NCBI GenBank assembly: GCA_030529305.1
Contig: JAUMXD010000023.1
Location: 1-18,196, forward strand
Length of the DNA stretch: 18,196 nt
Reading direction: 5' to 3'
Source: Allobrachymonas sp.
GTDB lineage: Bacteria; Pseudomonadota; Gammaproteobacteria; Burkholderiales; Burkholderiaceae
Shown in pieces: positions 1,673 to 16,514 of this stretch (the stretch's first letter is position 1; each line of letters begins with the position of its first letter). The notes under the pieces were generated by a model. That model saw nothing but the letters and a program-made list of their open reading frames with translations, searched no databases and was not told the DNA's origin. A program made the position numbers and the translations under genes.

Positions 1673-1728
1673 GTAGGAGTTCTCTGTTTATATTTCCTAC
1701 ATAGGAGTTTCGCTCGAAAACATCCTAC
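1673..1728. promoter_or_regulatory. two abutting NikR-type operators upstream of ureABC
   Basis: Site 1 is GTAGGA (1673-1678), 16 bp, TCCTAC (1695-1700). Site 2 is ATAGGA (1701-1706), 16 bp, TCCTAC (1723-1728). The two 28-bp dyads abut with no gap. E. coli NikR binds GTATGA-N16-TCATAC, which has the same half-site length and the same 16-bp spacer with one base changed per half-site. A nikR gene lies about 4 kb away in this window, and a third dyad of this geometry lies in front of the UPF0016 gene. A possible -10 element, TATATT at 1689-1694, falls inside site 1, which would favour repression by nickel-loaded NikR; no good -35 was found, so the promoter position is uncertain. The dyads are directly visible, and their assignment to NikR is inferred. 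Confidence 0.72.
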
Positions 1729-1854: not shown

Positions 1855-2160
1855 ATGCATTTGATGCCCAGAGAAATTGAGAAGCTGATGATTTATTCGG
1901 CTGGAGAGTTGGCCAAGGCACGCAAGGCGCGTGGCCTCAAGCTCAACTACATGGAGGCAATGGCTTTGATTTCGGCCGAGTTGATGGAGCGTGCGCGCGA
2001 TGGCGTGAGCGTGGCTGAGCTGCAGGATGAGAACGCTCCGCCCATTGTCAAGAAAGATGAAGTGATGGAAGGCGTTGCAGAAATGATCGGCCACGTGCTG
2101 ATCGAGGCAACTTTCCCTGACGGCACCAAGATGGTGACGGTGAACCATCCCATTCGTTAA
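1855..2160 (+). CDS. ureA: urease subunit gamma
   Basis: This 101-residue protein is the small gamma subunit of urease, a structural part of the (alpha-beta-gamma)3 enzyme that hydrolyses urea to ammonia and carbon dioxide in the cytoplasm. It shows the family pattern from the start: [13 protein letters not shown], then the helix [22 protein letters not shown], the ELMERARDG segment and the closing [16 protein letters not shown]. The length matches the usual 100 or so residues. The start at ATG 1855 is chosen because AAGGAG at 1842-1847 is well placed before it and UreA proteins begin this way, although the frame is open further upstream. The gene is separate from ureB, unlike the fused UreA of Helicobacter. 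It lies downstream of two NikR-type dyads and is probably cotranscribed with ureB and ureC. Confidence 0.96.
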
Positions 2161-2221: not shown

Positions 2222-2584
2222 ATGATTCCAGGTGAAGTCATTTTCAAATCCACCCCCATCACCATCAATGAGGGTTTGGCCGTCAAGAAAATCACGGCCG
2301 TCAACAAGGGCACGCGCCCCATCCAGATCGGCTCGCACATCCACTTTTTCGAAGTGAACGAGTACCTGAGCTTTGACCGGGCCGAGGCCTTTGGCTATCG
2401 CCTCGACATCGCCTCGGGCACGGCCGTGCGCTGGGAGCCGGGTGAGAAGAAAGAAGTGCAACTGGTAGAGATCACCGGCAACCGTTTGGTGCTGGGCGCC
2501 AATGGTTTGACCAATGGGCAGATCAACGAGAAAACGCTGCTTCAGGCGATGGAGCGCGCAAAAGTTGCCGGCTTTGTTGAGTAA
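2222..2584 (+). CDS. ureB: urease subunit beta, with C-terminal extension
   Basis: This 120-residue protein is the beta subunit of urease. The family pattern is clear: MIPGEVIF start, [46 protein letters not shown] and the final [14 protein letters not shown]. The start at ATG 2222 has a strong AAAAGGAG at 2207-2214; an in-frame codon further upstream lacks one. Stand-alone beta subunits usually end near residue 100-106, but this one continues for about 18 residues ([17 protein letters not shown]). That tail resembles the end of the fused UreA of Helicobacter (..ALHRAKERGF..), judged from memory of that family. The gene lies 61 bp after ureA and 11 bp before ureC, so one operon is likely. Confidence 0.95.
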
Positions 2585-2595
2585 GGAGAATAGAA

Positions 2596-4317
2596 ATGTC
2601 TACCAAAATCGAAAGAAAAGAATACGCCTCCATGTTCGGCCCGACCACGGGCGACAAGATCCGCTTGGGCGATACGGAATTGTTCGTCGAGATCGAAAAG
2701 GACTACAACGTCTATGGCGAAGAGTCCAAGTTCGGTGGCGGCAAAACCATCCGTGACGGCATGGGGCAAAGCGCACGCGCCGGTCAGGCCAATGCCCTGG
2801 ACTTGGTGATCACCAATGCGGTCATCATTGATCCGATTCTGGGTGTAGTCAAAGGCGACATCGGCATCAAGGACGGCAAGATCGTCGGCGTGGGCAAAGC
2901 GGGCAACCCCGATACGATGAATGGCGTGACTGACCGCTTGATCATCGGCGTGGGAACGGATGTGTTTTCTGCCGACGGCAAGATCGTGACGCCTGCAGGG
3001 ATTGACTCCCACGTGCACTTCATCAACCCGCACCAGTTCCACACGGCCCTGTTCTCTGGCGTAACCACTTTGATTGGCGGTGGCGCAGGCCCCAACACCG
3101 GTTCTTTGGCCACCACTTGTACGCCAGGTCCGTGGAACATCCACAAGATGCTGGAATCGGTCGAGGCCTTCCCCATGAACTTCGGCTTCACGGGCCGCGC
3201 CAACTGTACGACCAGCATGCCTTTGGTCGAGCAGATCAAGGCTGGCGCATTGGGTCTGAAGCTGCACGAAGACTGGGGCACCACGCCTGCTGCCATTCGC
3301 AGCGCGCTGGATGTGGCCGACGAGTACGACGTGCAAATCACCATCCACACCGATACCCTGAACGAGGCTGGTTATGTGGAAAGCACCCGCCGCGCCATTG
3401 GCGGACGCACCATTCACACCTACCACATCGAAGGTGCTGGCGGTGGTCACTCGCCTGACGTGATCTCGCTGGTGGGCGAGCCCAATGTGCTGCCTTCTTC
3501 CACCACGCCCACGGTGCCTTACACCAAGAACGTGATGGCCGAGCACATGGCCATGATTGCCGGCTGCCACCACTTGGATCTGAAGCTCGAAGAAGACATC
3601 TCCTTCTGTGAGTCTCGCATCCGCAATGGCAGTATGGCTGCGGAAGACGTGCTGCACGACATGGGCGCGATCTCCATGATGTCTTCGGACTCTCAGGCCA
3701 TGGGGCGTATTGCCGAGATGATCATCCGCACCTGGCAGCTGGCCGACAAGATGAAGAAGCAGCGCGGGCAGTTGCCTGAAGCCAAAGGCGAAGACAACGA
3801 CAACTTCCGCGTCAAGCGTTACATGGCCAAATACACCATCAACCCGGCCATCACCCACGGTATCTCCGACTACCTGGGTTCGATCGAGCCCGGCAAGATG
3901 GCTGACCTGGTAGTTTGGGAGCCCAAGATGTTTGGCGCCAAGCCCCACACGGTCTTCAAGGCCGGCTTCATCGCCGCAGCCAAGATGGGTGATGCCAACG
4001 CTTCACTGACCTCTCCACAGCCCGTGATCATGCAAGACATGTTCGGTGCTTATGGTCATGCAAGAAACCGCATCAGCGCATCCTTTGTTTCTAATGCCGC
4101 TTACGAAGACGGCATCAAGGAGAAGCTGGGCCTGAATCAGATGGTGCTGCCGGTGCGCAATATCCGCACAGTCGGCAAGCGCTGCATGATCCACAACAAC
4201 TTGGCGCCGAAGATGTCGGTCGATCCCAAGACGATGATCGTCAGTGCCGATGGCGTACCGCTCAAGAGCGAAACGGTGCAAACGTTGCCTTTGGCTCAGC
4301 GTTACTTCCTGTTCTGA
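2596..4317 (+). CDS. ureC: urease subunit alpha (catalytic)
   Basis: This 573-residue protein is the catalytic alpha subunit of urease, which carries the dinuclear metal centre. All primary metal ligands are present: His139 and His141 (HVHF), Lys222 for carbamylation (GLKLHEDWG), His251 (HTDTLNE), His277 and Asp365 (SSDSQAMG). The mobile-flap Cys324-His325 pair is also present. The ribosome binding site AAGGAG at 2583-2588 overlaps the end of ureB. Several residues normally constant around the active site differ: [10 protein letters not shown] for the common GP..GTNATT, YHIEG for FHTEG, STTPT for STNPT, SMAAE for TIAAE, and AGCHH for VCHH. The enzyme is probably active but unusual in its second shell. 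No accessory gene for nickel insertion follows; a terminator lies 60 bp downstream. Metal identity (nickel or iron) cannot be read from the sequence. Confidence 0.97.
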
Positions 4318-4636: not shown

Positions 4637-5776
4637 ATGAACCGAAACAGAACAACGCCCCAATGGCCCGGCCCGCCCAGAGCGCCGGTTGCGGAACTGC
4701 TTGCCGACCTGAGCGCGGGAAAAATGGTGATTCTGCTGGATGCGGCGGAACGCAAGAACGAGGCCAAGCTGGTACTGGCTGCCGAGTGTGCAAACGCCAG
4801 CGCCATCAACTTCATGGCCAAGTATGGCAAAGGGCTGATCTGCCTGGCCTTGTCACGCCAGCGCTGCCAGGAATTGGGGCTGGCATTGCAGGGCGCAGCG
4901 GCTGAAGGTCGGCAGCCATGCCGCGCCAATGGCCTGGCATTCACTGTCTCCATAGAGGCGGCAGAGGGAGTGAGCACTGGCATATCGGCCGCAGATAGGG
5001 CGCTGACAATTCAGCGCGCAGTCAAAGGCAGGCCACAGGATATTGTGCAACCGGGGCATGTCTTTCCTTTGCAAGCGGTTGAGGGCGGTGTATGGATGCG
5101 TCCCGGCCACACCGAGGCGGGTTGTGATCTGGCGGCCCTGGCGGGGTATGAGCCGGCTGCGGTGGTATGTGCCATCTTGCGTGCCGATGGCAGCGTGGCA
5201 CAAGAAAAAGACATTGCCGCGTTTGCCAGAGAGCATCGGCTCAAAGTGGGCCATATCAATGATCTGATCGCGCACCGCATCCGCCATGAAGCGTGGGTGC
5301 ACCGGGTGGCCACGCAAACCATATGTACGCACTATGGCGAATATGTGGCGCACGCCTACCGCGAAGCGTGCACCGGCCGTTTGCACATTGCGCTCGTCAA
5401 AGGCAGCTGGAACCCCAGCGAAGCGATCTATGCGCGGATTCACGATTCGGTATCGGCCCTGGATGTGCTGAGCACCAAAACTCACTGCAGCCATGAAGCC
5501 AGCTTGCACACCACGCTTTGCCAAATGCAGCAACAAAGCAAGGGCGTGGTGATTTTGCTTGATTGCAGCGAGAGCAGTCAGCGCATATTCGAAAGCCTAG
5601 CCAGCACACAAAAAAACAGCCTTGGCAAACAAGCGCAGGGGGAAATGCTTGCTTGGCAAAGGCATGGCGTTAGTTTGCATATTTTGCGCGATTGCAAAGT
5701 ATCAAAGCCCGATTTTTCACACGATCGATTGAGTCTGGTTAAAAAAGGAGAAAAGCTTTCCGAAGTGATGGCCTGA
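4637..5776 (+). CDS. RibB/RibA-like fusion protein with degenerate active sites
   Basis: From ATG 4637 this is a 379-residue protein. Residues about 18-215 match 3,4-dihydroxy-2-butanone-4-phosphate synthase (RibB): YGKGLICLAL, FTVSIEAAEGVSTGISAADRALT, QPGHVFPL, RPGHTEAGCDLAALAGYEPA. Residues about 220-355 resemble the N-terminal half of GTP cyclohydrolase II. The RibB catalytic loop, DDEDRENEGD in E. coli, reads DAAERKNEAK at 35-44: Arg39 and Glu42 remain, but positions matching Glu38 and Asp42 are lysines, and the later Glu174 position is Ala179. The cyclohydrolase zinc Cys cluster is not recognisable. It is therefore probably not a working riboflavin enzyme. RibBX-type fusions that lost the cyclohydrolase are known, but here RibB is eroded too. 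Start is uncertain: ATG 4625 and GTG 4553 are in frame and none has a good ribosome binding site. No FMN riboswitch is visible upstream. Confidence 0.8.
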   Translation: MNRNRTTPQWPGPPRAPVAELLADLSAGKMVILLDAAERKNEAKLVLAAECANASAINFMAKYGKGLICLALSRQRCQELGLALQGAAAEGRQPCRANGLAFTVSIEAAEGVSTGISAADRALTIQRAVKGRPQDIVQPGHVFPLQAVEGGVWMRPGHTEAGCDLAALAGYEPAAVVCAILRADGSVAQEKDIAAFAREHRLKVGHINDLIAHRIRHEAWVHRVATQTICTHYGEYVAHAYREACTGRLHIALVKGSWNPSEAIYARIHDSVSALDVLSTKTHCSHEASLHTTLCQMQQQSKGVVILLDCSESSQRIFESLASTQKNSLGKQAQGEMLAWQRHGVSLHILRDCKVSKPDFSHDRLSLVKKGEKLSEVMA

Positions 5777-5857: not shown

Positions 5858-6280
5858 TCAGCCTTGTTGCTTCAATTTGAATTGGGTGGGCATGATGGCA
5901 ATATTTCCATAGTAAACACCACGCTCTGCAATGATTTGATGAGCCATTTTCTGAACCTGATGGGTTTCGCCTTTTAGAACCAGATTCTCCAAACAGTGTT
6001 CGGGGTCCAGATGAATATGAGAATTAACCATGACGATATCGCAAACAGCATGCTGCATGGCAAGCAAGCGTTCTGTCAAATCACGTTGACGATGTTGATA
6101 GATATACGAAATATTCGCCAAGCAATAAGGAGATTGATTACGCTGCAGGCGTAGCTCCTGGATTTTTTCGCGCAAAAGATCGCGCATGGCTTCGGAGCGA
6201 TTTTGATAACCCCTGCTTTGAATCAGCTCGTCAAATTCTTTGACCAGACTTCCTTCCAATGAAATGGTGATGCGCTCCAT
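5858..6280 (-). CDS. nikR: nickel-responsive regulator NikR
   Basis: This 140-residue protein is a NikR transcription factor. Residues 1-45 form the ribbon-helix-helix DNA-binding domain (ERITISLEGSLVKEFDELI, RGYQNRSEAMRDLLRE). Residues 55-132 form the ACT-like nickel-binding tetramerisation domain. All four high-affinity nickel ligands of E. coli NikR have counterparts: His77 (MQHAVCD), His88 and His90 (SHIH) and Cys96 (EHCLEN). His63 in the YQHRQRD segment is also kept. The start is supported by AAGGAG ten bases upstream on the minus strand. It is transcribed away from the UPF0016 gene and toward the riboflavin-like gene. Likely targets in this window are the N16-spaced dyads at 1673-1728 and 6513-6540. 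Its own promoter shows no clear NikR dyad. Confidence 0.96.
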   Translation of the reverse strand: MERITISLEGSLVKEFDELIQSRGYQNRSEAMRDLLREKIQELRLQRNQSPYCLANISYIYQHRQRDLTERLLAMQHAVCDIVMVNSHIHLDPEHCLENLVLKGETHQVQKMAHQIIAERGVYYGNIAIMPTQFKLKQQG

Positions 6281-6512: not shown

Positions 6513-6540
6513 ATATGAAATAAATGTTTATTCATCCTAC
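6513..6540. promoter_or_regulatory. NikR-type operator upstream of the UPF0016 gene
   Basis: ATATGA (6513-6518), exactly 16 bp, TCCTAC (6535-6540). The left half has the E. coli NikR core TATGA, and the right half is identical to that of the two urease dyads. It ends 54 bp before the ATG of the membrane protein gene and lies 232 bp from nikR. The match to NikR geometry is visible; binding is inferred. Confidence 0.6.
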
Positions 6541-6594: not shown

Positions 6595-6867
6595 ATGGAC
6601 TACAAGGCAATAGCAGCTGTTTTCTGTACCGTATTTTTTGCCGAGCTGGGAGATAAAACGCAGTTGGCGACTCTGCTGTTTGCGGCCGATCAGAAAAATT
6701 GTCGCTTGAGCATTTTTGTCGCCGCAGCGCTGGCGTTGGTCTTGACCTCAGCCATAGGCGTGCTGACAGGTGGTTTGCTTTCGCGGTACATCAATCCCCA
6801 ATACCTGCAATATGTGGCTGCCGCAGGCTTCATTGGCATGGGGGTATGGATTTTCCTCAAGATCTGA
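6595..6867 (+). CDS. half-size UPF0016/GDT1 (TMEM165) family membrane protein
   Basis: This 90-residue protein carries one copy of the UPF0016 cation-transporter repeat, with the family motif E-x-G-D-K-(T/S) at residues 17-22 (AELGDKTQLATLLFA). Three hydrophobic segments lie at roughly 5-16, 37-58 and 68-88. Full-length members have two such repeats; half-size bacterial members must pair to form a transporter, often as two adjacent genes, but no second copy is here. Family members move manganese or calcium out of the cytoplasm. GGAGGAG at 6580-6586 supports the start. The NikR-type dyad upstream and the surrounding nickel genes suggest a role in nickel, or in a cross-reacting divalent cation, possibly export. 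The family call is confident; the substrate is not known. Confidence 0.88.
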   Translation: MDYKAIAAVFCTVFFAELGDKTQLATLLFAADQKNCRLSIFVAAALALVLTSAIGVLTGGLLSRYINPQYLQYVAAAGFIGMGVWIFLKI

Positions 6868-7368: not shown

Positions 7369-9063
7369 ATGTTATTTCACGAAACAATCAAGCTACAAGC
7401 TCGTTCGGGGGCATCGGCTTTGCAGCGCTGGCCTTTGATTCTGGGCAGCTGCGCGGCCGCTTTGACATTGGCCGCTTGTTCCAAGCAGGGTGCTGCGCCA
7501 GCGGCTTCCAGCGCGGCTTCGGCGGCGCAACCCGCATCGGCAGTGGCTGCTGCCGGGCCTTCGCGCCTGGTATTTGCCGCTACGCGCAATGTGGGGCCGC
7601 TGAACCCGCATATGTATTCGCCCAACGAGATGTACGGGCAGAACATGGTGTACGAGCCGCTGGTGAAGTACACGAAAGAGGGCAAGATCGTGCCTTGGCT
7701 GGCCGAATCGTGGGAGATTGCGCCCGATGGCAAGAGCTACACCTTCAAGCTGCGCACCGATGTGAAGTTTTCCGACGGCAGCGCTTTTGATGCCGAAGCG
7801 GTGAAAAAGAACGTGGATGCCGTGCTGGCCAGCCGCAAGCGCCACGATTGGCTGGATCTGATCAATAAACTGGTCGGCGTAGAGGTGGTGGACGCACACA
7901 CCGTGCGCTTCAACCTCAATGAAGCGTATTACCCGCTGCTGCAAGATCTTTCGCTGATCCGCCCCTTGCGTTTCATGGCGCCCAGCTCCATTCCAGAAAG
8001 CGGCACCACGGCCGATGGCATCAAAGCGCCCGTTGGTACTGGCCCCTGGATGGTGGCTGAGTTGAAAGATGGCGAATACGATCTGTTCAAGCAGAACCCG
8101 CACTACTGGGGCAAAAAGCCCGGGTTTGACGAGGTGATGTTCAAGGTCATTCCAGACACTAACTCGCGCGCGCTGGCGCTGGAATCGGGCGAGGTGGACA
8201 TTGTGTTTGGCGATGGCTCCATTACGCCCGATGCCTTCAAGCGTTTCGAGTCGCAAAGTGGGCAGTTTGCGGCCACGGTTTCGCAGCCGATGGCAACGCG
8301 CATGCTGGCGATCAACTCCAAGCGCTTCCCGACCGATGATTTGGCGGTGCGCAAGGCCATCAGCCACGCTACGAATAAAGACGCGATCGTCAAGGACGTG
8401 CTGTTCAACATCGAACCCAAGGCCGACACGCTGTTTGCCAGCAATGTGCCCTATGCCAATCTGGGCCTGAAGCCCTATGAATACAACGCGGAAGCGGCCA
8501 CCAAACTGCTGGAAGAAGCAGGCTGGAAGCTGCCTGCAGGCGGCAAGGTGCGCGAGAAGAATGGCAAAAAACTCACCATTGACCTGAACTTTGTGAGCAG
8601 CGATGGCACAGAGCGCGCCATTGCCGAAGTGCTGCAGGCCGACTTGGGCAAAGTGGGCTTTCAGGTGAATCTGGTGGGTGAAGAGCCCAGTGCGAAGCAC
8701 GCGCGTGAAATCGACGGCACATTCCACCTGATCTTCAACGCCAGCTGGGGCGCGCCATACGAGCCGCACGCATTTGCGGCCTCCATGCGCCAGCCTTCGC
8801 ATGCCGATTACCAAGCGCAAGCGGGCTTGCCGATGAAGGCAGAGATCGACAAGCAGATCACGCAAGTGATGCTGGAAACCGATGAGGCCAAGCGTGCCGA
8901 GCTGTGGACGTGGATTCTCAACACCCTGCACGATCAGGCCGTGTACCTGCCCATTTCCAGCCTCAACCTGATTGAGGTGCACAACCCCAAAAAGGTGGGC
9001 AACGTGGAATTTGGCGCTTTGGCCAACGAAATTCCGGTCGAGCTGATGCAACCGGCGAAATAA
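7369..9063 (+). CDS. nikA: nickel-binding lipoprotein of the Nik ABC importer
   Basis: This 564-residue protein is the substrate-binding component of a NikABCDE importer (family 5 binding protein). It is similar to E. coli NikA over nearly the whole length: NVGPLNPHMYSPNEM, MVYEPLVKY, VPWLAESW, PYANLGLKP, WGAPYEPHAF and MRQPSHADYQAQ. The residues that hold nickel or its chelator in E. coli NikA have exact counterparts: Arg158, Trp161, Arg198, Trp460, Tyr464 and His478 (E. coli Arg97, Trp100, Arg137, Trp398, Tyr402, His416). This argues for nickel rather than peptide transport. The N-terminus ends in a lipobox (LAAC, Cys37) and then an Ala/Ser-rich linker, so it is probably lipid-anchored, whereas E. 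coli NikA is a soluble periplasmic protein. AGGAGG at 7358-7363 fixes the start at ATG 7369. Confidence 0.95.
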   Translation: MLFHETIKLQARSGASALQRWPLILGSCAAALTLAACSKQGAAPAASSAASAAQPASAVAAAGPSRLVFAATRNVGPLNPHMYSPNEMYGQNMVYEPLVKYTKEGKIVPWLAESWEIAPDGKSYTFKLRTDVKFSDGSAFDAEAVKKNVDAVLASRKRHDWLDLINKLVGVEVVDAHTVRFNLNEAYYPLLQDLSLIRPLRFMAPSSIPESGTTADGIKAPVGTGPWMVAELKDGEYDLFKQNPHYWGKKPGFDEVMFKVIPDTNSRALALESGEVDIVFGDGSITPDAFKRFESQSGQFAATVSQPMATRMLAINSKRFPTDDLAVRKAISHATNKDAIVKDVLFNIEPKADTLFASNVPYANLGLKPYEYNAEAATKLLEEAGWKLPAGGKVREKNGKKLTIDLNFVSSDGTERAIAEVLQADLGKVGFQVNLVGEEPSAKHAREIDGTFHLIFNASWGAPYEPHAFAASMRQPSHADYQAQAGLPMKAEIDKQITQVMLETDEAKRAELWTWILNTLHDQAVYLPISSLNLIEVHNPKKVGNVEFGALANEIPVELMQPAK

Positions 9064-9139: not shown

Positions 9140-10090
9140 ATGGCCAAGTACATCATGGGTCGTTTGCTGGTCGTTATCCCCATGTTGCTGGGGGCATCGG
9201 TCATCGTGTTTGTCATGATGCGCTTTGGCGGCGCAGACCCCGCTTTGAACTATTTGCGCTTGTCGCAAGTGCCACCGTCTGAAGAGGCTTTGGCCCATGC
9301 GCGCCAAATGCTGGGGCTGGATCGCCCCTTGCTGGTGCAGTACCTGGATTGGTTGTGGAAAGCCCTGCATCTGGACTTTGGCCTGTCTTACGTGTCGCGC
9401 AAGCCCGTGATGCAAGAGTTTTTGTCTTTCCTGCCAGCGTCCATCAAACTGGGCAGCACCGCTTTTTTGTTCATCATGGCGGTAAGCATTCCCTTGGGCG
9501 TGCAATCTGCCGTGCATCGTGACCGCTGGCCCGATCATCTGGGGCGCTTCATCTCCCTGCTGGGTGTTTCAACGCCCACCTTCTGGCTGGGCTTCATCCT
9601 GATCTATGTGTTTGCCGTGTGGCTGAAGTGGCTGCCGCCGTTTGGGCGGCAAGACTGGCGCAGCTACATCATGCCGGTGTTCACCATGTCCTTCATGTCG
9701 CTGGCCGTCAACTCGCGCCTGCTGCGCAGCTCCATGCTCGAGGCCAAGGGCCAACGCTACGTGCTGTGGGCGGCCATGCGCGGCCTGCCGCAAACATACA
9801 TCACGCGCCACCACGTGCTGCGCAATGCCATGCTGCCCATCCTGACGGTGTCGGGCATGTATCTGGCGCAGTTGATCGGCTGGAGCATGATGGTGGAAAC
9901 GGTGTTTGCCTGGCCGGGCGTGGGGCGCTGGCTGGTGGCCTCCATCAATAACCGCGACTACCCCGTGCTGCAATGCTTCACGTTGGTGATGACGACTTTT
10001 TTCGTCTTGATCAATCTGCTCAACGACATTCTCTACGCCTGGGTGGATCCGAGCATCCGCTACTCGGGCAGCGACAAGGGGGTGAGCTGA
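9140..10090 (+). CDS. nikB: nickel ABC transporter permease NikB
   Basis: This 316-residue inner-membrane permease belongs to the DppB/NikB family. An N-terminal transmembrane helix (residues about 4-26, LLVVIPMLLGASVIVFVMM) is followed by the family periplasmic loop (LGLDRPLLVQYLDWL, DFGLSY) and five more hydrophobic segments. The EAA-type coupling loop that contacts the ATPase reads EAKGQRYVLWAAMRGLP. The length equals that of E. coli NikB. ATG 9140 is preferred over GTG 9101 because family N-termini begin MxxYxxRR/LL; its ribosome binding site is weak. It lies 76 bp after nikA across a hairpin and one base before nikC. Confidence 0.93.
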   Translation: MAKYIMGRLLVVIPMLLGASVIVFVMMRFGGADPALNYLRLSQVPPSEEALAHARQMLGLDRPLLVQYLDWLWKALHLDFGLSYVSRKPVMQEFLSFLPASIKLGSTAFLFIMAVSIPLGVQSAVHRDRWPDHLGRFISLLGVSTPTFWLGFILIYVFAVWLKWLPPFGRQDWRSYIMPVFTMSFMSLAVNSRLLRSSMLEAKGQRYVLWAAMRGLPQTYITRHHVLRNAMLPILTVSGMYLAQLIGWSMMVETVFAWPGVGRWLVASINNRDYPVLQCFTLVMTTFFVLINLLNDILYAWVDPSIRYSGSDKGVS

Positions 10091-10091
10091 G

Positions 10092-11096
10092 ATGAGCGCG
10101 ACAACAGGCACCGGCGCTACCGTGGCAGCCGCGCCAGCAAGTGCGCCTGCTCTTGGCGCAGATTCCTTGCCCGGGCCGCGCGGCGGCTGGCCGCAAGCAG
10201 CGCCGCCCAAGCCCGATCCGTCGGATCAACCCGGCATGCCGTTCGGGCACAAGCCCAGCCTGTGGCAAAGCTTCGTGGCTTTTCCGCTCTCGCTCAAGCT
10301 GGCGCTCGTCATCATCGCGGTGCTGGTTCTTGTGGGCGTGGCCGCGCCCTGGCTGGCGCCCTACGATCCGCTGGAGGTGGACGTGACCCAGAAGCTGCAG
10401 GGCTGGAGCCGTGCGCACTGGCTGGGCACCGACTATCTGGGGCGCGACATGCTCTCGCGCCTGCTCTACGGCACGCGCATTTCGGTGGGCGTCACGGCGC
10501 TGGTGCTGGCCCTGGTGTTTCTGGCGGGCTTGGTGATTGGCGGCGTGGCGGGTTTTTTCGGCGGCAAGGTCGATTCCCTCATCATGCGCACGTGCGATAT
10601 TTTCATGACCATTCCGTCCACCGTGCTGGCCGTGTTCTTCGTGGGCGTGCTGGGCGTGGGCATGGCCAATGTGGTGGCGGCGCTGGTGCTGTCGAGCTGG
10701 CCCTGGTATGCGCGCATCGTGCGCAGCGTGGTGCTGTCGGTGCGCGAGCGCGATTACGTGCTGGCCGCGCGCGCCTCGGGCGTGCCGCCCATGCGTGTGC
10801 TCATCCATCACATCCTGCCCGGGGTGTATGCGCAACTGATCGTGCTCGTCACCTTGGACATCGGCCACACCATGCTGCATGTGGCGGGCCTGTCGTTTCT
10901 GGGCCTGGGCATTGCCCCGCCCACGCCCGAATGGGGCGTGATGATCAACGACGCGCGCAGCTACATCTACAACCAGCCCATGCTGGTGGTGCTGCCGGGC
11001 CTGATGCTGTTTCTGACCGTGATGGCCTTCAACCGCGTGGGCGATGCCCTGCGCGACATGCTCGACCCCAGCCTGATGGCCGGCGGCAAGAAATAA
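10092..11096 (+). CDS. nikC: nickel ABC transporter permease NikC, with N-terminal extension
   Basis: This 334-residue DppC/NikC-type permease pairs with NikB. After the first membrane helix (residues about 66-90) comes the family signature WLAPYDPLEVD...HWLGTDYLGRDMLSRLLYGTRISV, then further helices and the EAA-like coupling loop RERDYVLAARASGVPP. E. coli NikC has 277 residues; the extra length is a cytoplasmic Ala/Pro/Gly-rich tail of about 55 residues at the N-terminus. Its ATG is one base after the nikB TGA, so translation is probably coupled. An alternative is that the true start lies inside the low-complexity tail (for example Met49, MPFGHK). The family call is firm. Confidence 0.92.
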   Translation: MSATTGTGATVAAAPASAPALGADSLPGPRGGWPQAAPPKPDPSDQPGMPFGHKPSLWQSFVAFPLSLKLALVIIAVLVLVGVAAPWLAPYDPLEVDVTQKLQGWSRAHWLGTDYLGRDMLSRLLYGTRISVGVTALVLALVFLAGLVIGGVAGFFGGKVDSLIMRTCDIFMTIPSTVLAVFFVGVLGVGMANVVAALVLSSWPWYARIVRSVVLSVRERDYVLAARASGVPPMRVLIHHILPGVYAQLIVLVTLDIGHTMLHVAGLSFLGLGIAPPTPEWGVMINDARSYIYNQPMLVVLPGLMLFLTVMAFNRVGDALRDMLDPSLMAGGKK

Positions 11097-11111
11097 AGGC
11101 AGGGCCAAGGC

Positions 11112-11894
11112 ATGAGGCAGAAACTGAGGGTGGAAAACCTGCGCCTGGGCGCCGTGAAAAGCGGCCAGCCGCTGGAATTGGTGCACGGCGTCAACCTGGA
11201 GATTGAGCGCGGCCAGATTCTGGCCCTGATCGGCTCCAGCGGCAGCGGCAAATCATTGACCTGCGCCGGCCTGCAAGGCGTGTTGCCGGCGGGCATTGAG
11301 CATTTGGGCGGGCGCGCCTGGATTCAGGACGGCGAGCAACAGCACGCCGTGCGCCCCGGCCGCGACGTGGCCACCATCATGCAGCACCCGCGTTCGGCCT
11401 TCGACCCGCTCATGACCATGCGCGCCCACGCGCAGGAAACGGCGCGCTTTGCTTCCAGGCCCCGCAAACTGAGCGAAGAAGAGTTGCGCCGCTGTTTCGC
11501 CGAAGCCGGTCTGGACGATGAGCGCGTGCCCGATCTGTACCCCTTCGAGATGAGCGGCGGCATGCTGCAACGCGCCATGATGGCCGTGGCGCTGATTCTG
11601 GAAACGCCCTTCATCCTGGCCGACGAGCCCACCACCGCCATGGATCTGGTGGTGCAAACCAAGGTGCTCGACATGCTCAAGCAGATTGCGCAGACGCGCC
11701 ACATCGGCATGCTGTTCGTCACGCACGACATGGGCGTGGTGGCCCATATGGCCACCGACGTGGCCGTGATGGACAAAGGCCGCATCGTCGAAACGGGCAC
11801 GGTGCAGCGCATCTTTGATGCGCCGCAACACGCACGCACCCGCGCACTGGTGCAGGCGCATCTGGCGCTTTACCCCGAGGAGGCCGCGGCATGA
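11112..11894 (+). CDS. nikD: nickel ABC transporter ATP-binding protein NikD
   Basis: This 260-residue protein is the first ATPase of the Nik importer. Walker A is GSSGSGKS at 41-48. The ABC signature is MSGGMLQR, which is typical of NikD rather than the SGGQ of most ATPases, and Walker B is FILADEPTTAMD, followed by the switch histidine in VTHDMGVVA. The segment MQHPRSAFDPLMTM is also NikD/DppD-like. The start at ATG 11112 has only a weak AAGG upstream, 15 bp after nikC. Its end overlaps nikE by four bases (ATGA). Confidence 0.94.
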   Translation: MRQKLRVENLRLGAVKSGQPLELVHGVNLEIERGQILALIGSSGSGKSLTCAGLQGVLPAGIEHLGGRAWIQDGEQQHAVRPGRDVATIMQHPRSAFDPLMTMRAHAQETARFASRPRKLSEEELRRCFAEAGLDDERVPDLYPFEMSGGMLQRAMMAVALILETPFILADEPTTAMDLVVQTKVLDMLKQIAQTRHIGMLFVTHDMGVVAHMATDVAVMDKGRIVETGTVQRIFDAPQHARTRALVQAHLALYPEEAAA

Positions 11895-12745
11895 GGCCAG
11901 CCAATCACCATCCGCTGCCCGTGCTCGCCTGCAAGGATCTGCACAAATCCTATGCCCCCGGCTGGTTCAGCGCCGGCTCGGCCAAGCACGTGCTGCAGGG
12001 CATCAAGCTGCACATCCACGAAGGCGAAAGCGTGGCCCTGCTGGGCGAAAGCGGTTCGGGCAAAAGCACGCTGGGGCGGCAGTTGCTGGGCTTTGAAAAA
12101 CCCAGCGCGGGCGAAGTGCTTTATCGCGGCCAGCCCTTGCAAACGCTGAGTGCCGAAGGCAACAAAGACTTTCGGCGCCATGTGCAGATGGTGTTTCAGG
12201 ATTCGGTGGCGGCCGTCAACCCGCGCTACCGCATTGGCCGCGCGATTGAAGAGCCCCTGCGCTACCTCACCGCCATGAGCGAGGCAGCGCGCAAGGCCCG
12301 CGTGGCCGAGCTGCTGGAACTGGTCGCCCTGCAAGCGCAAGACGCCGACAAGCTGCCCCTGCAAATGAGCGGCGGGCAATTGCAGCGGGTGTGCATTGCG
12401 CGGGCGCTGGCCTCTTCCCCCAAACTGATCGTGCTGGACGAAGCCGTATCCAGCCTCGATCTGACCCTGCAAATCCAGATCCTCGATTTGCTCACCGAGC
12501 TGCGCAACAAACTGGGCGTGGCTTACCTTTTCATCACCCACGATCTGCGCTTGGTGCGGCGGTTTTGCGATCGCCTGATCGTGCTGGCCAATGGCCAGGT
12601 CGTGGAAGAAGCCGCTGTGCCCGCGCACGGCCCCGTGCGGCTGGCGCACCCGCTCTCGCGCAAACTGCAAGAAGCCATCCTGCCCGCCCGGCCAGCGGCG
12701 GCGCAGCCGCGCGCCCCAGCAAACACTGCTGCGCCCACGGCTTGA
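11891..12745 (+). CDS. nikE: nickel ABC transporter ATP-binding protein NikE
   Basis: This 284-residue protein is the second ATPase of the Nik importer. Walker A is GESGSGKST at 52-60, then the Q-loop MVFQDSVAAVNPR, the signature MSGGQLQR, Walker B LIVLDEAVSSLD (the DEAVS form is characteristic of NikE) and the switch ITHD. The C-terminal 30 residues are Ala/Pro-rich and not conserved. ATG 11891 overlaps the nikD stop (ATGA), showing translational coupling. It is the last gene of the nik operon; a 293-bp spacer follows without an obvious terminator. Confidence 0.94.
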   Translation: MRPANHHPLPVLACKDLHKSYAPGWFSAGSAKHVLQGIKLHIHEGESVALLGESGSGKSTLGRQLLGFEKPSAGEVLYRGQPLQTLSAEGNKDFRRHVQMVFQDSVAAVNPRYRIGRAIEEPLRYLTAMSEAARKARVAELLELVALQAQDADKLPLQMSGGQLQRVCIARALASSPKLIVLDEAVSSLDLTLQIQILDLLTELRNKLGVAYLFITHDLRLVRRFCDRLIVLANGQVVEEAAVPAHGPVRLAHPLSRKLQEAILPARPAAAQPRAPANTAAPTA

Positions 12746-12910: not shown

Positions 12911-13038
12911 TTGCTTGGTGGGCGCAGCCGCTGCAGCTTGGGCCGGGTTTTGACCGAAGGTAAGAGTCTTTTCAAAACTTATGTGATAGCATCCGCTCCC
13001 ATCTGATGTCCCGATTGTTTTTTCACAAAGGAGCCTCC

Positions 13039-14196
13039 ATGTCTTTCAGAGCTTTTCTCCCTCGTTTGCGGGTGGCCGCTGCCGCCATGGCAGGCGCTGC
13101 CCTGCTGACGGTCGGCCTCGTCACGCCCGCGCATGCGCAAAAGACCACGGTCACCGATGTGGCCGGGCGCAAGGTCGAAGTGCAACTGCCGGTGAAAAAG
13201 GCCGTGATCGCCTGGTCGGGTTCGGGCGGCCCCTTCATGACCATGTCGGCCCTGCTGGGCAAAGATGTGCACAAGCACATTGCCGGCTGGGACAACGGCC
13301 TGGCGCAGTACCGCAAAGACATGTATGACGCCTACGTCAAATCCGTGCCCGAACTGGCCAAGCTGCCGGTGATAGGCAGCCCCGATACGGATGACTACAA
13401 CGTTGAAAAAGTCATTGCCTTGGCACCCGATGTGGCCATCTTCCCTCTGGGTACAAAAAAGGCTGTTGAAGGCGGTGTGGGCAAAAAGCTGGAGGCCGCT
13501 GGCATTCCCGTGCTCTATACCGACTACCACGCCGAAACGGTAGAAAACCACCGCAACACCACCCTCTTGCTGGGCAAGCTTTTCAACAAAGAAGCGCGCG
13601 CCAAGCAGCTGGCTGATCTGTACACCAGCAAGCGCAAGGATGTGGAAGCGCGCGTAGCCAAAGCCAAGGCGGCAGGCCGCCAGGTGCCCAAGGTGTATAT
13701 GGAAGTGGGCAGCAAAGGCCCCGCTGCGTTTGGCAACACCTACAGCTCCAACTTCATGTGGGGCGGCATGGCCACCATTGCGGGCGGCAATATGGTCACG
13801 GGTTCTGTCATCGTGAATGCAGCGCCGGTTGACCCCGAATTCCTGCTCAAAAGCAATCCCGACGTGATCGTGCTGACAGGTTCTTACTGGCCCAAAACGC
13901 CCGAGTCGCTGTTGATGGGCTACACCGCTACGCCTGCCGTGGTGCAGAAGAAACTGGGCGAGTTTGCCCAGCGTCCGGGCTGGAGCGAGTTCAACGCCAT
14001 CAAGAACAAGCGCCTGTACGCCGTACACCACGGCGCTGGTCGTGAGTTGTACGACTACGTCACGCTGATGGCGCTGGGTAAATTCTTTTACCCCGAAGAC
14101 TTCAAGGACGTGAACCCTGAAGCCGAACTCAAGGCTTACTACAAGAACTACCTGCCCTACGACGTGAGCGGCGTGTGGTTCTATCAGTGGAAATAA
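13039..14196 (+). CDS. FecB/BtuF-type periplasmic metal-complex binding protein
   Basis: This 385-residue protein is the binding component of a class-II (FecBCD/BtuCDF) ABC importer. A Sec signal peptide is clear, with basic RAFLPRLR, a hydrophobic core and AHA-Q cleavage near residue 33. The family opening TVTDVAGRKVEVQLPVKKAVI is followed by NVEKVIALAPDVAIFP, the middle helix region and LLKSNPDVIVLTGS. Several His/Tyr/Trp residues in TDYHAETVENHRN, YAVHHGAGRELYDY and VWFYQWK could take part in ligand binding. AAAGGAG at 13027-13033 fixes the start. Annotation pipelines would call it iron-siderophore binding, but next to nikR, nikABCDE and urease a nickel or nickel-chelate ligand is plausible, as for Helicobacter NiuB. 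The ligand is not determinable here. Confidence 0.9.
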   Translation: MSFRAFLPRLRVAAAAMAGAALLTVGLVTPAHAQKTTVTDVAGRKVEVQLPVKKAVIAWSGSGGPFMTMSALLGKDVHKHIAGWDNGLAQYRKDMYDAYVKSVPELAKLPVIGSPDTDDYNVEKVIALAPDVAIFPLGTKKAVEGGVGKKLEAAGIPVLYTDYHAETVENHRNTTLLLGKLFNKEARAKQLADLYTSKRKDVEARVAKAKAAGRQVPKVYMEVGSKGPAAFGNTYSSNFMWGGMATIAGGNMVTGSVIVNAAPVDPEFLLKSNPDVIVLTGSYWPKTPESLLMGYTATPAVVQKKLGEFAQRPGWSEFNAIKNKRLYAVHHGAGRELYDYVTLMALGKFFYPEDFKDVNPEAELKAYYKNYLPYDVSGVWFYQWK

Positions 14197-14228
14197 GCGT
14201 AGCCAGCTAGGCTAGGTACAACATTGCG

Positions 14229-14259
14229 CGGGGCGGATCACTGGGTTGATGCCGCCCCG
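14229..14259 (+). other. strong hairpin between binding-protein and permease genes
   Basis: CGGGGCGG (14229-14236) pairs with CCGCCCCG (14252-14259), and ATCA/TGAT extend the stem inward across one bulged G. Only a short TGTTTG follows, so it is at best a leaky terminator or an mRNA-stabilising structure. It would allow more binding protein than permease, like the hairpin after nikA. Confidence 0.6.
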
Positions 14260-14478
14260 TGTGTTTGCTGCCTTTGGCCAACAAGTTTGAGATAAGCCGC
14301 AGCTTGAGTCTTCTGCAAACAAAGAATGGGTCAAGCAATGGCCCAGACGGCGCAGCCCGTGGCCAAGCCTGGTCAAGCAAGCAGAAGGCGGTGCATGCGG
14401 CATTGCATCGATGCAGGAACGACGGATGAAACAAGTGCCCGATATGCGCGCGGCAGCCACGCATGAAATGGATGCGAG

Positions 14479-15705
14479 ATGAGCACAGCAGACAAGAAAG
14501 CGCCTGGGTCGCTAAACGGCCCAAATGGCCCAAATGGTCTAAACGGCGCACCCGATTCGCCTGAGGCAACAAGCACAGCCGCAGGCCCGCTGGTGGCCGA
14601 TGCGCCGTCCGTGAGCGGGCGGGCGGCCCCGCAACCCGGGCAGCCCTTGCCAGAGCCGCAGCAGCGTTTTGACTACCGCCGCGCCATACGCAAGCGTTTT
14701 ATTTTTCTGTTTGGCGGCTTGCTCGTGGGCCTGGTGCTGGCTGTGGTGGATTTGCTCACGGGCTCGGCCAATGTGGCGGCAAGCGACGTGCTGTGTGTCA
14801 TCAGCCAATGGGCCACGGGTTGCGAGGCACCCAAAATCGCCGTGACCGTGGTCAAGGTCTATCGCATTCCCACGGTGCTCACGGCCATTGGCGTGGGGGC
14901 TTCGTTGGGCGTGGCCGGTTCCATCATGCAAACCATTTTGCGCAACCCGCTGGCCAGCCCTTACACGCTGGGCATTTCGGCCGGGGCCGGTTTTGGCGCG
15001 GCGCTCACCATCGTGACGGGTTTTGCCGCGATCGAAGGCCTGGGCATTTGGCTGGTGCCTTTCAATGCCTTTGTGTTTGCCTTGATGACGTGCTTTTTGA
15101 TCTACGCCATCGGTTCGTTCAAAAGGCTCACGCCCGGCACCATGATTCTGGCGGGCATTGGCCTGTCGTTTCTGTTCAATGCCCTGCAGTCGATGATGCA
15201 GTACGGCGCCACGGCCGAGCAGAACCAGAACATCGTGTTCTGGTTGTTTGGCAGCCTGTCCAAGTCCGACACCAAAACCGCCGTCTTCATGCTCGGCCTG
15301 GTGCTGGTGTTGCTGCCCATGCTCATGGTCAAGTCCTGGCAGTTCACCGCCCTGCAATTGGGCGACGAAAAGGCGACTGGCTTGGGCATCAACGTCAAGC
15401 GCCTGCGTTTGACGGGCTTTGCCGTGGCCTCGCTGCTCACGGCTACGGCTGTGAGTTTTGTGGGCACCATCGGCTTTGTGGGCCTGGCAGGGCCGCACGT
15501 GGCGCGCCTGCTGGTGGGTGAGGATCAGCGCTTCTTCATGCCTTTGTCGGCGCTGTTTGGCTCGCTCATTCTGCTGCTGGCCGATATCGTGAGCAAAAGC
15601 CTGCTCGAAGGTTTCATCTTCCCCATCGGCATCATCACCTCGTTGATCGGGGTGCCTGTTTTCTTCTCGGTCGTGCTGTCCAAGCGGCGCAGCTATTTCT
15701 CATGA
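14479..15705 (+). CDS. FecCD/BtuC-type ABC transporter permease
   Basis: This 408-residue inner-membrane permease belongs to the FecCD family. Conserved segments are VYRIPTVLTAIGVGASLGVAGSIMQTILRNPLASPYTLGISAGAGFGA, AGIGLSFLFNA, FWLFGSLS, GDEKATGLGINV, and FVGTIGFVGLAGPHVARLLVGEDQRFFMPLSALFGSLILLLADI. About ten membrane helices are expected. The first 65 residues are a cytoplasmic Gly/Ala/Pro/Asn-rich extension not found in typical members, containing four tandem x-Asn-Gly triplets. No strong ribosome binding site precedes ATG 14479, and the true start could be further in. It lies 282 bp after the binding-protein gene and overlaps the ATPase gene by four bases. Confidence 0.92.
   Translation: MSTADKKAPGSLNGPNGPNGLNGAPDSPEATSTAAGPLVADAPSVSGRAAPQPGQPLPEPQQRFDYRRAIRKRFIFLFGGLLVGLVLAVVDLLTGSANVAASDVLCVISQWATGCEAPKIAVTVVKVYRIPTVLTAIGVGASLGVAGSIMQTILRNPLASPYTLGISAGAGFGAALTIVTGFAAIEGLGIWLVPFNAFVFALMTCFLIYAIGSFKRLTPGTMILAGIGLSFLFNALQSMMQYGATAEQNQNIVFWLFGSLSKSDTKTAVFMLGLVLVLLPMLMVKSWQFTALQLGDEKATGLGINVKRLRLTGFAVASLLTATAVSFVGTIGFVGLAGPHVARLLVGEDQRFFMPLSALFGSLILLLADIVSKSLLEGFIFPIGIITSLIGVPVFFSVVLSKRRSYFS
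14512..14547 (+). repeat. four tandem 9-bp repeats coding x-Asn-Gly
   Basis: Units CTAAACGGC, CCAAATGGC, CCAAATGGT and CTAAACGGC follow each other in frame within the permease N-terminal tail and encode LNG-PNG-PNG-LNG. The first and last units are identical. The array is likely to expand or contract by slippage in multiples of three residues. Confidence 0.75.
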
Positions 15706-16514
15706 TTCGCATCCAGAACTACTCATTCGGCTACCCCAACAGCGCTGTTCTGGAGGATGTGAATCTTTCCATTCCGGCCGGAAAAATCAGCGCCATCATC
15801 GGCGCCAACGGGGCGGGCAAAAGCACCTTGCTCAAAAGCGTGAGCGGCTTGCTGCAAGGGCGCGGCAGCATCCAGATTGGCGCGCAAGAAAACAATCTGC
15901 AAGAAGTGGCCACCATGCCGCAGCACGAGCGTGTGCGGCTCGTGAGCTACCTGTCGCAAGACTTGAATTGCGATGCCGCGCTGAGCGTGTTTGAAATCGT
16001 GCTGCTGGGCATGGTGGGTAGCCTGAACACGCGCGTGGCCGAGGCAGACATCGAACGTGCACACGCCGCGCTGGATACCTTCAACTTGGGCCGCTTTGCC
16101 CAGCGCAACATCACCGAACTCTCGGGCGGGCAGCGGCAAATGGTCTTCATCGCGCAAGCGCTGGTCAAGAACCCGAAGATTCTGGTCTTTGATGAACCCA
16201 CGGCCAGCCTTGACCTGTACCGCCAATACGAATTGATGAACCGCTTGCAAGCACTCACGCGCGAGCGGCAGTTGACCACGCTGCTCACCCTGCACCACCT
16301 GGAGCTGGTGGCGCATTACGCCGATCAGGTCATCGTCATGCACGACAAGAGGGTGTACGCCGCAGGCAGCCCGGCCGAGGTGATGACCGAGGCCATGTTC
16401 CAGGACGTTTTCCGCCTCGAAACCGAAGTGTTTACCGACAAGCGCGGCACCATCCGCGTGTTGCCGATCGCGCCCGCGCCCGTATTGGCGCCAGCGGCTG
16501 GAGCGGTGTCTTAA
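15702..16514 (+). CDS. FecE/BtuD-type ABC transporter ATP-binding protein
   Basis: This 270-residue protein is the ATPase partner of the preceding permease. Walker A is GANGAGKS at 34-41, the Q-loop is in VSYLSQDLNCD, the signature is LSGGQRQMV, Walker B is ILVFDEPTASLD, and a switch histidine is in TLHHLELVAHYADQV. Its order and four-base ATGA overlap with the permease show that the two are made together. The family normally drives uptake of ferric siderophores, haem, cobalamin or, for the Niu systems of Helicobacter, nickel and cobalt. The last 20 residues are Ala/Pro-rich. Confidence 0.94.
   Translation: MIRIQNYSFGYPNSAVLEDVNLSIPAGKISAIIGANGAGKSTLLKSVSGLLQGRGSIQIGAQENNLQEVATMPQHERVRLVSYLSQDLNCDAALSVFEIVLLGMVGSLNTRVAEADIERAHAALDTFNLGRFAQRNITELSGGQRQMVFIAQALVKNPKILVFDEPTASLDLYRQYELMNRLQALTRERQLTTLLTLHHLELVAHYADQVIVMHDKRVYAAGSPAEVMTEAMFQDVFRLETEVFTDKRGTIRVLPIAPAPVLAPAAGAVS

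Follow-up and report, generated by a model that had tools for sequence, protein, structure and literature searches.

This locus raises the question of why two palindromic sites resembling those of the nickel regulator NikR precede a urease operon, and what kind of urease they would control. The window (the whole stretch of 18,196 nucleotides analyzed here) contains, in order, rpsQ (identified by eye), ureA, ureB, ureC, a RibBA-like gene, nikR on the opposite strand, a GDT1 gene, nikABCDE-like genes, an FecCD-type ABC transporter, and a methyltransferase gene. The genes for the urease gamma subunit (ureA, 1855-2160, plus strand; TIGR00193, 141 bits), the beta subunit (ureB, 2222-2584, plus strand; NF009682, 136 bits), and the catalytic alpha subunit (ureC, 2596-4317, plus strand; TIGR01792, 878 bits) are followed by one for a divergent RibBA-like protein with DHBP synthase and GTP cyclohydrolase II domains (4637-5776, plus strand; PF00926, PF00925), which occupies the place where urease accessory genes might be expected. 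Pfam or NCBIfam scans of 25 window proteins found no UreD, UreE, UreF, or UreG; further small or antisense reading frames were judged by eye. Downstream lie the gene of the nickel-responsive regulator NikR (5858-6280, minus strand; NF002815, 165 bits vs. a cut-off of 83), a GDT1 family cation/proton antiporter gene (6595-6867, plus strand; PF01169), nikA for the nickel-binding protein (7369-9063, plus strand; TIGR02294, 668 bits vs. a cut-off of 393), and nikBCDE-like nickel ABC transporter genes (9140-12745, plus strand). Of these last, nikB and nikC score above the NCBIfam cut-offs, nikD has its best match, under the cut-off, to TIGR02770, and nikE was assigned by position and PF00005 only. 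A second metal-type ABC transporter (periplasmic binding protein, FecCD permease, and ATPase) follows at 13036-16514 on the plus strand. The initial annotation, which described an isolated urease operon, overlooked both the missing accessory genes at the locus and the island with nikR and nickel transporter genes.

A contig (L001) of a Brachymonas metagenome-assembled genome (MAG; G001) represents a diverged relative of the window with the urease operon. It carries rpsQ and the same gene order up to nikA, near the end of L001. The two UreC proteins are identical at 570 of 573 residues (98.8% for ureC DNA). DNA identity is 97-99% over ureB and ureC vs. 74% in nikR (85% in nikA), which suggests a recent exchange of ureB and ureC between species that are themselves clearly distinct. 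The RibBA-like gene also follows ureC in L001, with 230 of 387 aligned columns identical. A plasmid origin of the urease was rejected, the best plasmid UreC being 61.5% identical. An Rfam match to RF02514 (5' ureB sRNA; 2751-3046, minus strand, 60 bits) lies antisense in ureC and was likewise rejected as an sRNA, since it probably reflects coding homology or conservation.

Upstream of ureA, GTAGGA-N16-TCCTAC at 1673-1700 (predicted operator 1, no strand assigned) abuts ATAGGA-N16-TCCTAC at 1701-1728 (predicted operator 2, no strand assigned), exactly as the initial annotation had claimed. Together they span about 56 bp, and 126 bases separate them from ureA. The E. coli NikR site is given as GTATGA-N16-TCATAC (PMC7055735); the single substitution per half-site previously described relative to it holds for GTAGGA and TCCTAC (one base each) but not for ATAGGA, which differs by two bases. 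The degenerate motif RTAKGA-N16-TCMTAY matches the 18,196-base window exactly at three places and none of 200 dinucleotide shuffles of it. Local shuffles of 1232-1854 (n = 5,000) contained on average 0.0002 matches, and when spacers of 8 to 27 were scanned, full 12/12 matches occurred at spacer 16 only. The dyads at 1673-1728 are not of chance origin.

Two other inverted repeats, neither with an assigned strand, flank the pair. The repeat ATTGTTTC-N5-GAAACAAT (1623-1643), 29 bases upstream of operator 1, occurs once in genome G001, at the urease operon, and is kept in L001 (1117-1145) with its outer pair changed and 13-base perfect arms; it is possibly a site for an activator or other factor, or a hairpin. 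The short repeat TTGTC-N2-GACAA (1764-1775), between the operators and ureA, is also kept in L001. In addition, a third NikR-type dyad, ATATGA-N16-TCCTAC, was found at 6513-6540 (no strand assigned) between the divergent nikR and GDT1 genes. Absent from the initial annotation, it ends 54 bases before the GDT1 family antiporter gene and suggests nickel control of the GDT1 protein. At the comparable place in L001 at most 10 of 12 positions match, and the site is not clearly kept there. No full dyad was found in the window upstream of nikA, the classical target.

The initial annotation had proposed to look for the dyads upstream of ureA in related genomes, and the tandem is kept in the sole close relative found with the operon. 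The L001 pair, GTAGGA-N16-TCCTAC (1169-1196) and ATAGGA-N16-TCTTAC (1197-1224), is also abutting. Its arms share 23 of 24 bases with those of the window, and its spacers 14 of 32 (Fisher test, P = 2.7e-5). This comparison is informative because the upstream region has diverged, although ureB and ureC were apparently exchanged recently. Conservation is measured here against one relative, a MAG: among nine genomes of the genus of L001, a close UreC was found in G001 only, G009 and G010 having UreCs at 54-56% and six having none. The exact motif occurs once in G001, at the urease operon, and its reversed control not at all. When one mismatch was allowed, six motif places were found vs. nine for the control, so that there was no enrichment and looser searches were uninformative.

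The window NikR scores below the cut-off of the narrower family TIGR02793 (139 vs. 175). Its best PDB match is E. coli NikR (1q5v), and both its N-terminus and its metal-ligand region are E. coli-like. The N-terminus reads MERITIS vs. MQRVTIT in E. coli NikR, where we take the residues of this N-terminal strand to read the operator; Ser stands at the last of these positions in all 25 aligned family NikRs (25 of 30 loci after filtering). Because nikR lies 4 kb away, because the third dyad stands beside nikR, and because half-sites are kept in L001 while spacers drift, the dyads at 1673-1728 are very probably NikR operators, and the original proposal of NikR-type sites before a urease operon in a betaproteobacterium is supported.

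The same proposal included a lineage consensus, GTAKGA-N16-TCMTAC. A NikR-like protein was present in 69 of 399 family genomes, of which 57, G001 included, were surveyed (12 whose NikR matches were weak or short were left aside). The motif RTAKGA-N16-TCMTAY occurred in 12 of these and its reversed control in 7. Twenty stretches around NikR genes, from 19 genomes, were examined for dyads. Besides contig 44 of G001, one of 19 NikR-linked stretches (G071) contained a full dyad, just upstream of nikR; this site is full by the degenerate motif and is not a perfect palindrome. The 400 bases preceding each of 19 other nikR genes contained no perfect 6-16-6 palindrome, and the neighbors of ten of the other motif matches in the surveyed genomes were mostly unrelated to nickel (translations judged by eye). 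These figures speak weakly for a consensus of the lineage. In genome G083, ATATGA-N16-TCATAT (L152) directly precedes an apparent DUF156-type regulator gene and an apparent MFS gene (both judged by eye), perhaps a nickel resistance system.

The low enrichment of the motif across NikR-bearing genomes bears on another explanation, that the dyads bind a different regulator with a similar layout or a second NikR encoded elsewhere in the genome. G001 does encode a second NikR, 51% identical to that of the window, and the classical target nikA lacks a full dyad. We nevertheless consider this explanation improbable: the 6-16-6 layout comes with half-sites close to those of E. coli, nikR belongs to the same island in both species and has the third dyad beside it, and the G071 site again lies just upstream of nikR.

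The direction of control is less clear than the identity of the sites. The initial annotation had placed a -10 candidate inside operator 1. The hexamer TATATT is indeed present at 1689-1694, just inside the operator, with TACATT at the corresponding place in L001, but scanning 1400-1900 for promoters gave no sigma-70-like site (vs. 1.4 expected in shuffles), and a -35 element was recognized for neither an activation nor a repression reading. We tentatively infer repression of ureABC rather than activation, as would follow if TATATT or TACATT were the -10 hexamer and overlapped the operator. The opposite direction, with NikR activating ureABC in the presence of nickel as it does at H. pylori ureA, agrees with operators that stand upstream of ureA with 126 bases between and with a scan showing no promoter across them; given the possible -10 hexamers, we regard it as rather unlikely.

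The H. mustelae parallel, previously used for the direction of regulation only, proved much closer than described, since it extends to the missing accessory genes and to rare residues of UreC. H. mustelae is a ferret stomach bacterium with an iron-using urease. In the PDB, the window UreC matches 3qga_C best (H. mustelae UreB2; 783 bits, the next match having 751), an entry named urease subunit beta 2, and we take 3QGA to be the iron enzyme. The ancestry of the window UreC is separate from that of Helicobacter UreB2. In the trees, UreB2 groups with other Helicobacter ureases, and a separate group holds the window clade (window, L001, P0001, and P0002) with P0003 as its sister; forcing the window clade and UreB2 into one clade cost 156.6 log-likelihood units (p-AU = 8.9e-78, eight columns excluded). 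Window UreA and UreB stand closer to nickel ureases than to UreA2; the C-terminal tail of UreB aligns to Helicobacter UreA.

Despite this separate ancestry, the window clade and UreB2 have rare states in common at UreC positions 148, 278, 286, 289, 304, 315, and 346. Each of the seven occurs in less than 5% of 291 other rows, vs. 0 to 5 such states in 20 control pairs. In the 328-row alignment, Ser286 was found elsewhere in 4, Ile278 in 1, Phe148 in 1, and Ser346 in 3 of 322 rows. These residues lie near the metal ligands in sequence. Ile278 directly follows the ligand His277, the equivalent of the metal ligand His272 of Klebsiella urease, and the His, Lys, and Asp ligands are all intact. Eight UreC columns were chosen for being common to both groups, so that their 8/8 score is circular and is not used as evidence. 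Among single rows, P0003 shared 9 rarest states with the window and two UreB2 rows 3 each, vs. at most 2 for any other row (mean 0.11 over 293 rows). In a free control of 239 clade pairs, the window and UreB2 had four common states in otherwise conserved columns. At stem distances above 0.7, other pairs reached three, two of these involving UreB2, and four nearer pairs had 4 to 12; when the sister P0003 was added to the window clade, no common state was kept. The window and UreB2 thus rank first among well-separated clade pairs, by four states vs. three, a lead that chance convergence might explain. Gene conversion from Helicobacter was rejected as the origin of the common residues, identity to UreB2 outside the eight columns not being raised locally. 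No further urease with the eight residues appeared in the best 120 matches of a search with a profile built from both groups. The sister P0003 (70% identical) has four of the eight common residues and looks intermediate.

A second, canonical urease was found in the relative. On contig 23 of G001, all of ureABCEFGD lie in one cluster together with a urea transporter, and the single UreD and single UreG matches of that genome are both there. Its subunit families and catalytic ligands are the same as in the window, but the window lacks the accessory genes, and the canonical UreC is 54% identical both to the other UreC of G001 and to that of the window. No dyad was found on contig 23 at up to one mismatch, the best site (10/12) lying about 300 bases upstream of canonical ureA. 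A canonical urease is assumed for the window's own genome by extrapolation from that of L001, and its accessory proteins could load nickel into the window urease in trans. Of 13 genomes searched, 3 had a UreG above the cut-off; none of the four termite-gut MAGs did. In the latter (Azoarcus and Accumulibacter; L002-L005), UreC is 66-68% identical to that of the window, and neither UreD nor UreG was found in these possibly incomplete assemblies. Their UreCs have ordinary residues at the eight columns common to the window and UreB2, so iron use does not follow from a lack of accessory genes by itself.

Among characterized systems, H. mustelae NikR directly represses ureA2B2 and activates ureAB, as described in PMC3919588. 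The window resembles ureA2B2 in that its urease structural genes lack accessory neighbors and come in addition to a canonical urease (here in the genome of L001), in nickel-linked control (here predicted), and in the rare UreC residues. It differs in the separate ancestry of UreC, in having three subunits vs. a fused UreA, in UreA and UreB closer to nickel ureases, and in being a betaproteobacterial locus where urease is linked to nikR and nikABCDE-like genes. With the E. coli nikABCDE operator it shares the 6-16-6 dyad, and the two NikRs belong to one family; unlike there, operator 1 departs by one base per half-site, two operators abut, and the target is urease, with no full dyad before nikA. 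The H. pylori NikR operators, TRTTA-N15-TAWTA according to PMC5385501, resemble those of the window in the NikR control of urease (predicted here) but differ in half-sites and spacing.

Because the window repeats the H. mustelae layout, the simplest account is that NikR represses a urease independent of nickel. With nickel plentiful, nickel-loaded NikR (5858-6280) would cover the two operators and shut off ureABC, and the canonical nickel urease encoded elsewhere would work. With nickel scarce, the ureABC operon would be made, and its product would be a spare urease needing neither nickel nor the UreDEFG loading proteins, probably using iron. The arrangement would match that of H. mustelae UreA2B2 but would have arisen on its own in a relative of Brachymonas. 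We judge the chances evenly balanced that nickel-loaded NikR represses a nickel-independent, probably iron, urease of separate origin.

A lesser but real possibility is that the dyads, though NikR operators, precede an ordinary nickel urease that is loaded in trans and whose level NikR tunes as repressor or activator. All metal ligands are standard, the accessory set is complete in the genome of L001, nickel import genes abound at the locus, and the termite-gut relatives, accessory-free as far as assembled, have ordinary UreC residues. Against it stand the identity of only 54% between the two UreCs of G001, the rare residues common with the iron urease and close to the ligands in sequence, and the canonical operon without a full dyad. 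Taken whole, the interpretation that a nickel-independent (iron) urease arose a second time, independently and outside Helicobacter, with residues around the metal site converging and a tandem NikR operator switching between the nickel urease and a spare one, falls a little short of an even prospect in our estimate.

Among the matches listed in the open-access literature (most subscription journals are outside it), no iron urease beyond Helicobacter was found, except for one speculated for cave Pseudarthrobacter (PMC9283089). The two open-access articles naming both Brachymonas and urease concerned other subjects, judged by title. With iron urease described from one lineage in the searchable literature, iron use and helper-free loading have been inseparable from ancestry. 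If the interpretation is true, an unrelated second iron urease would be a natural replicate, and the residues common to both would form a short, testable list. It would also extend nickel sparing through NikR-controlled swapping of enzymes beyond carnivore stomach bacteria.
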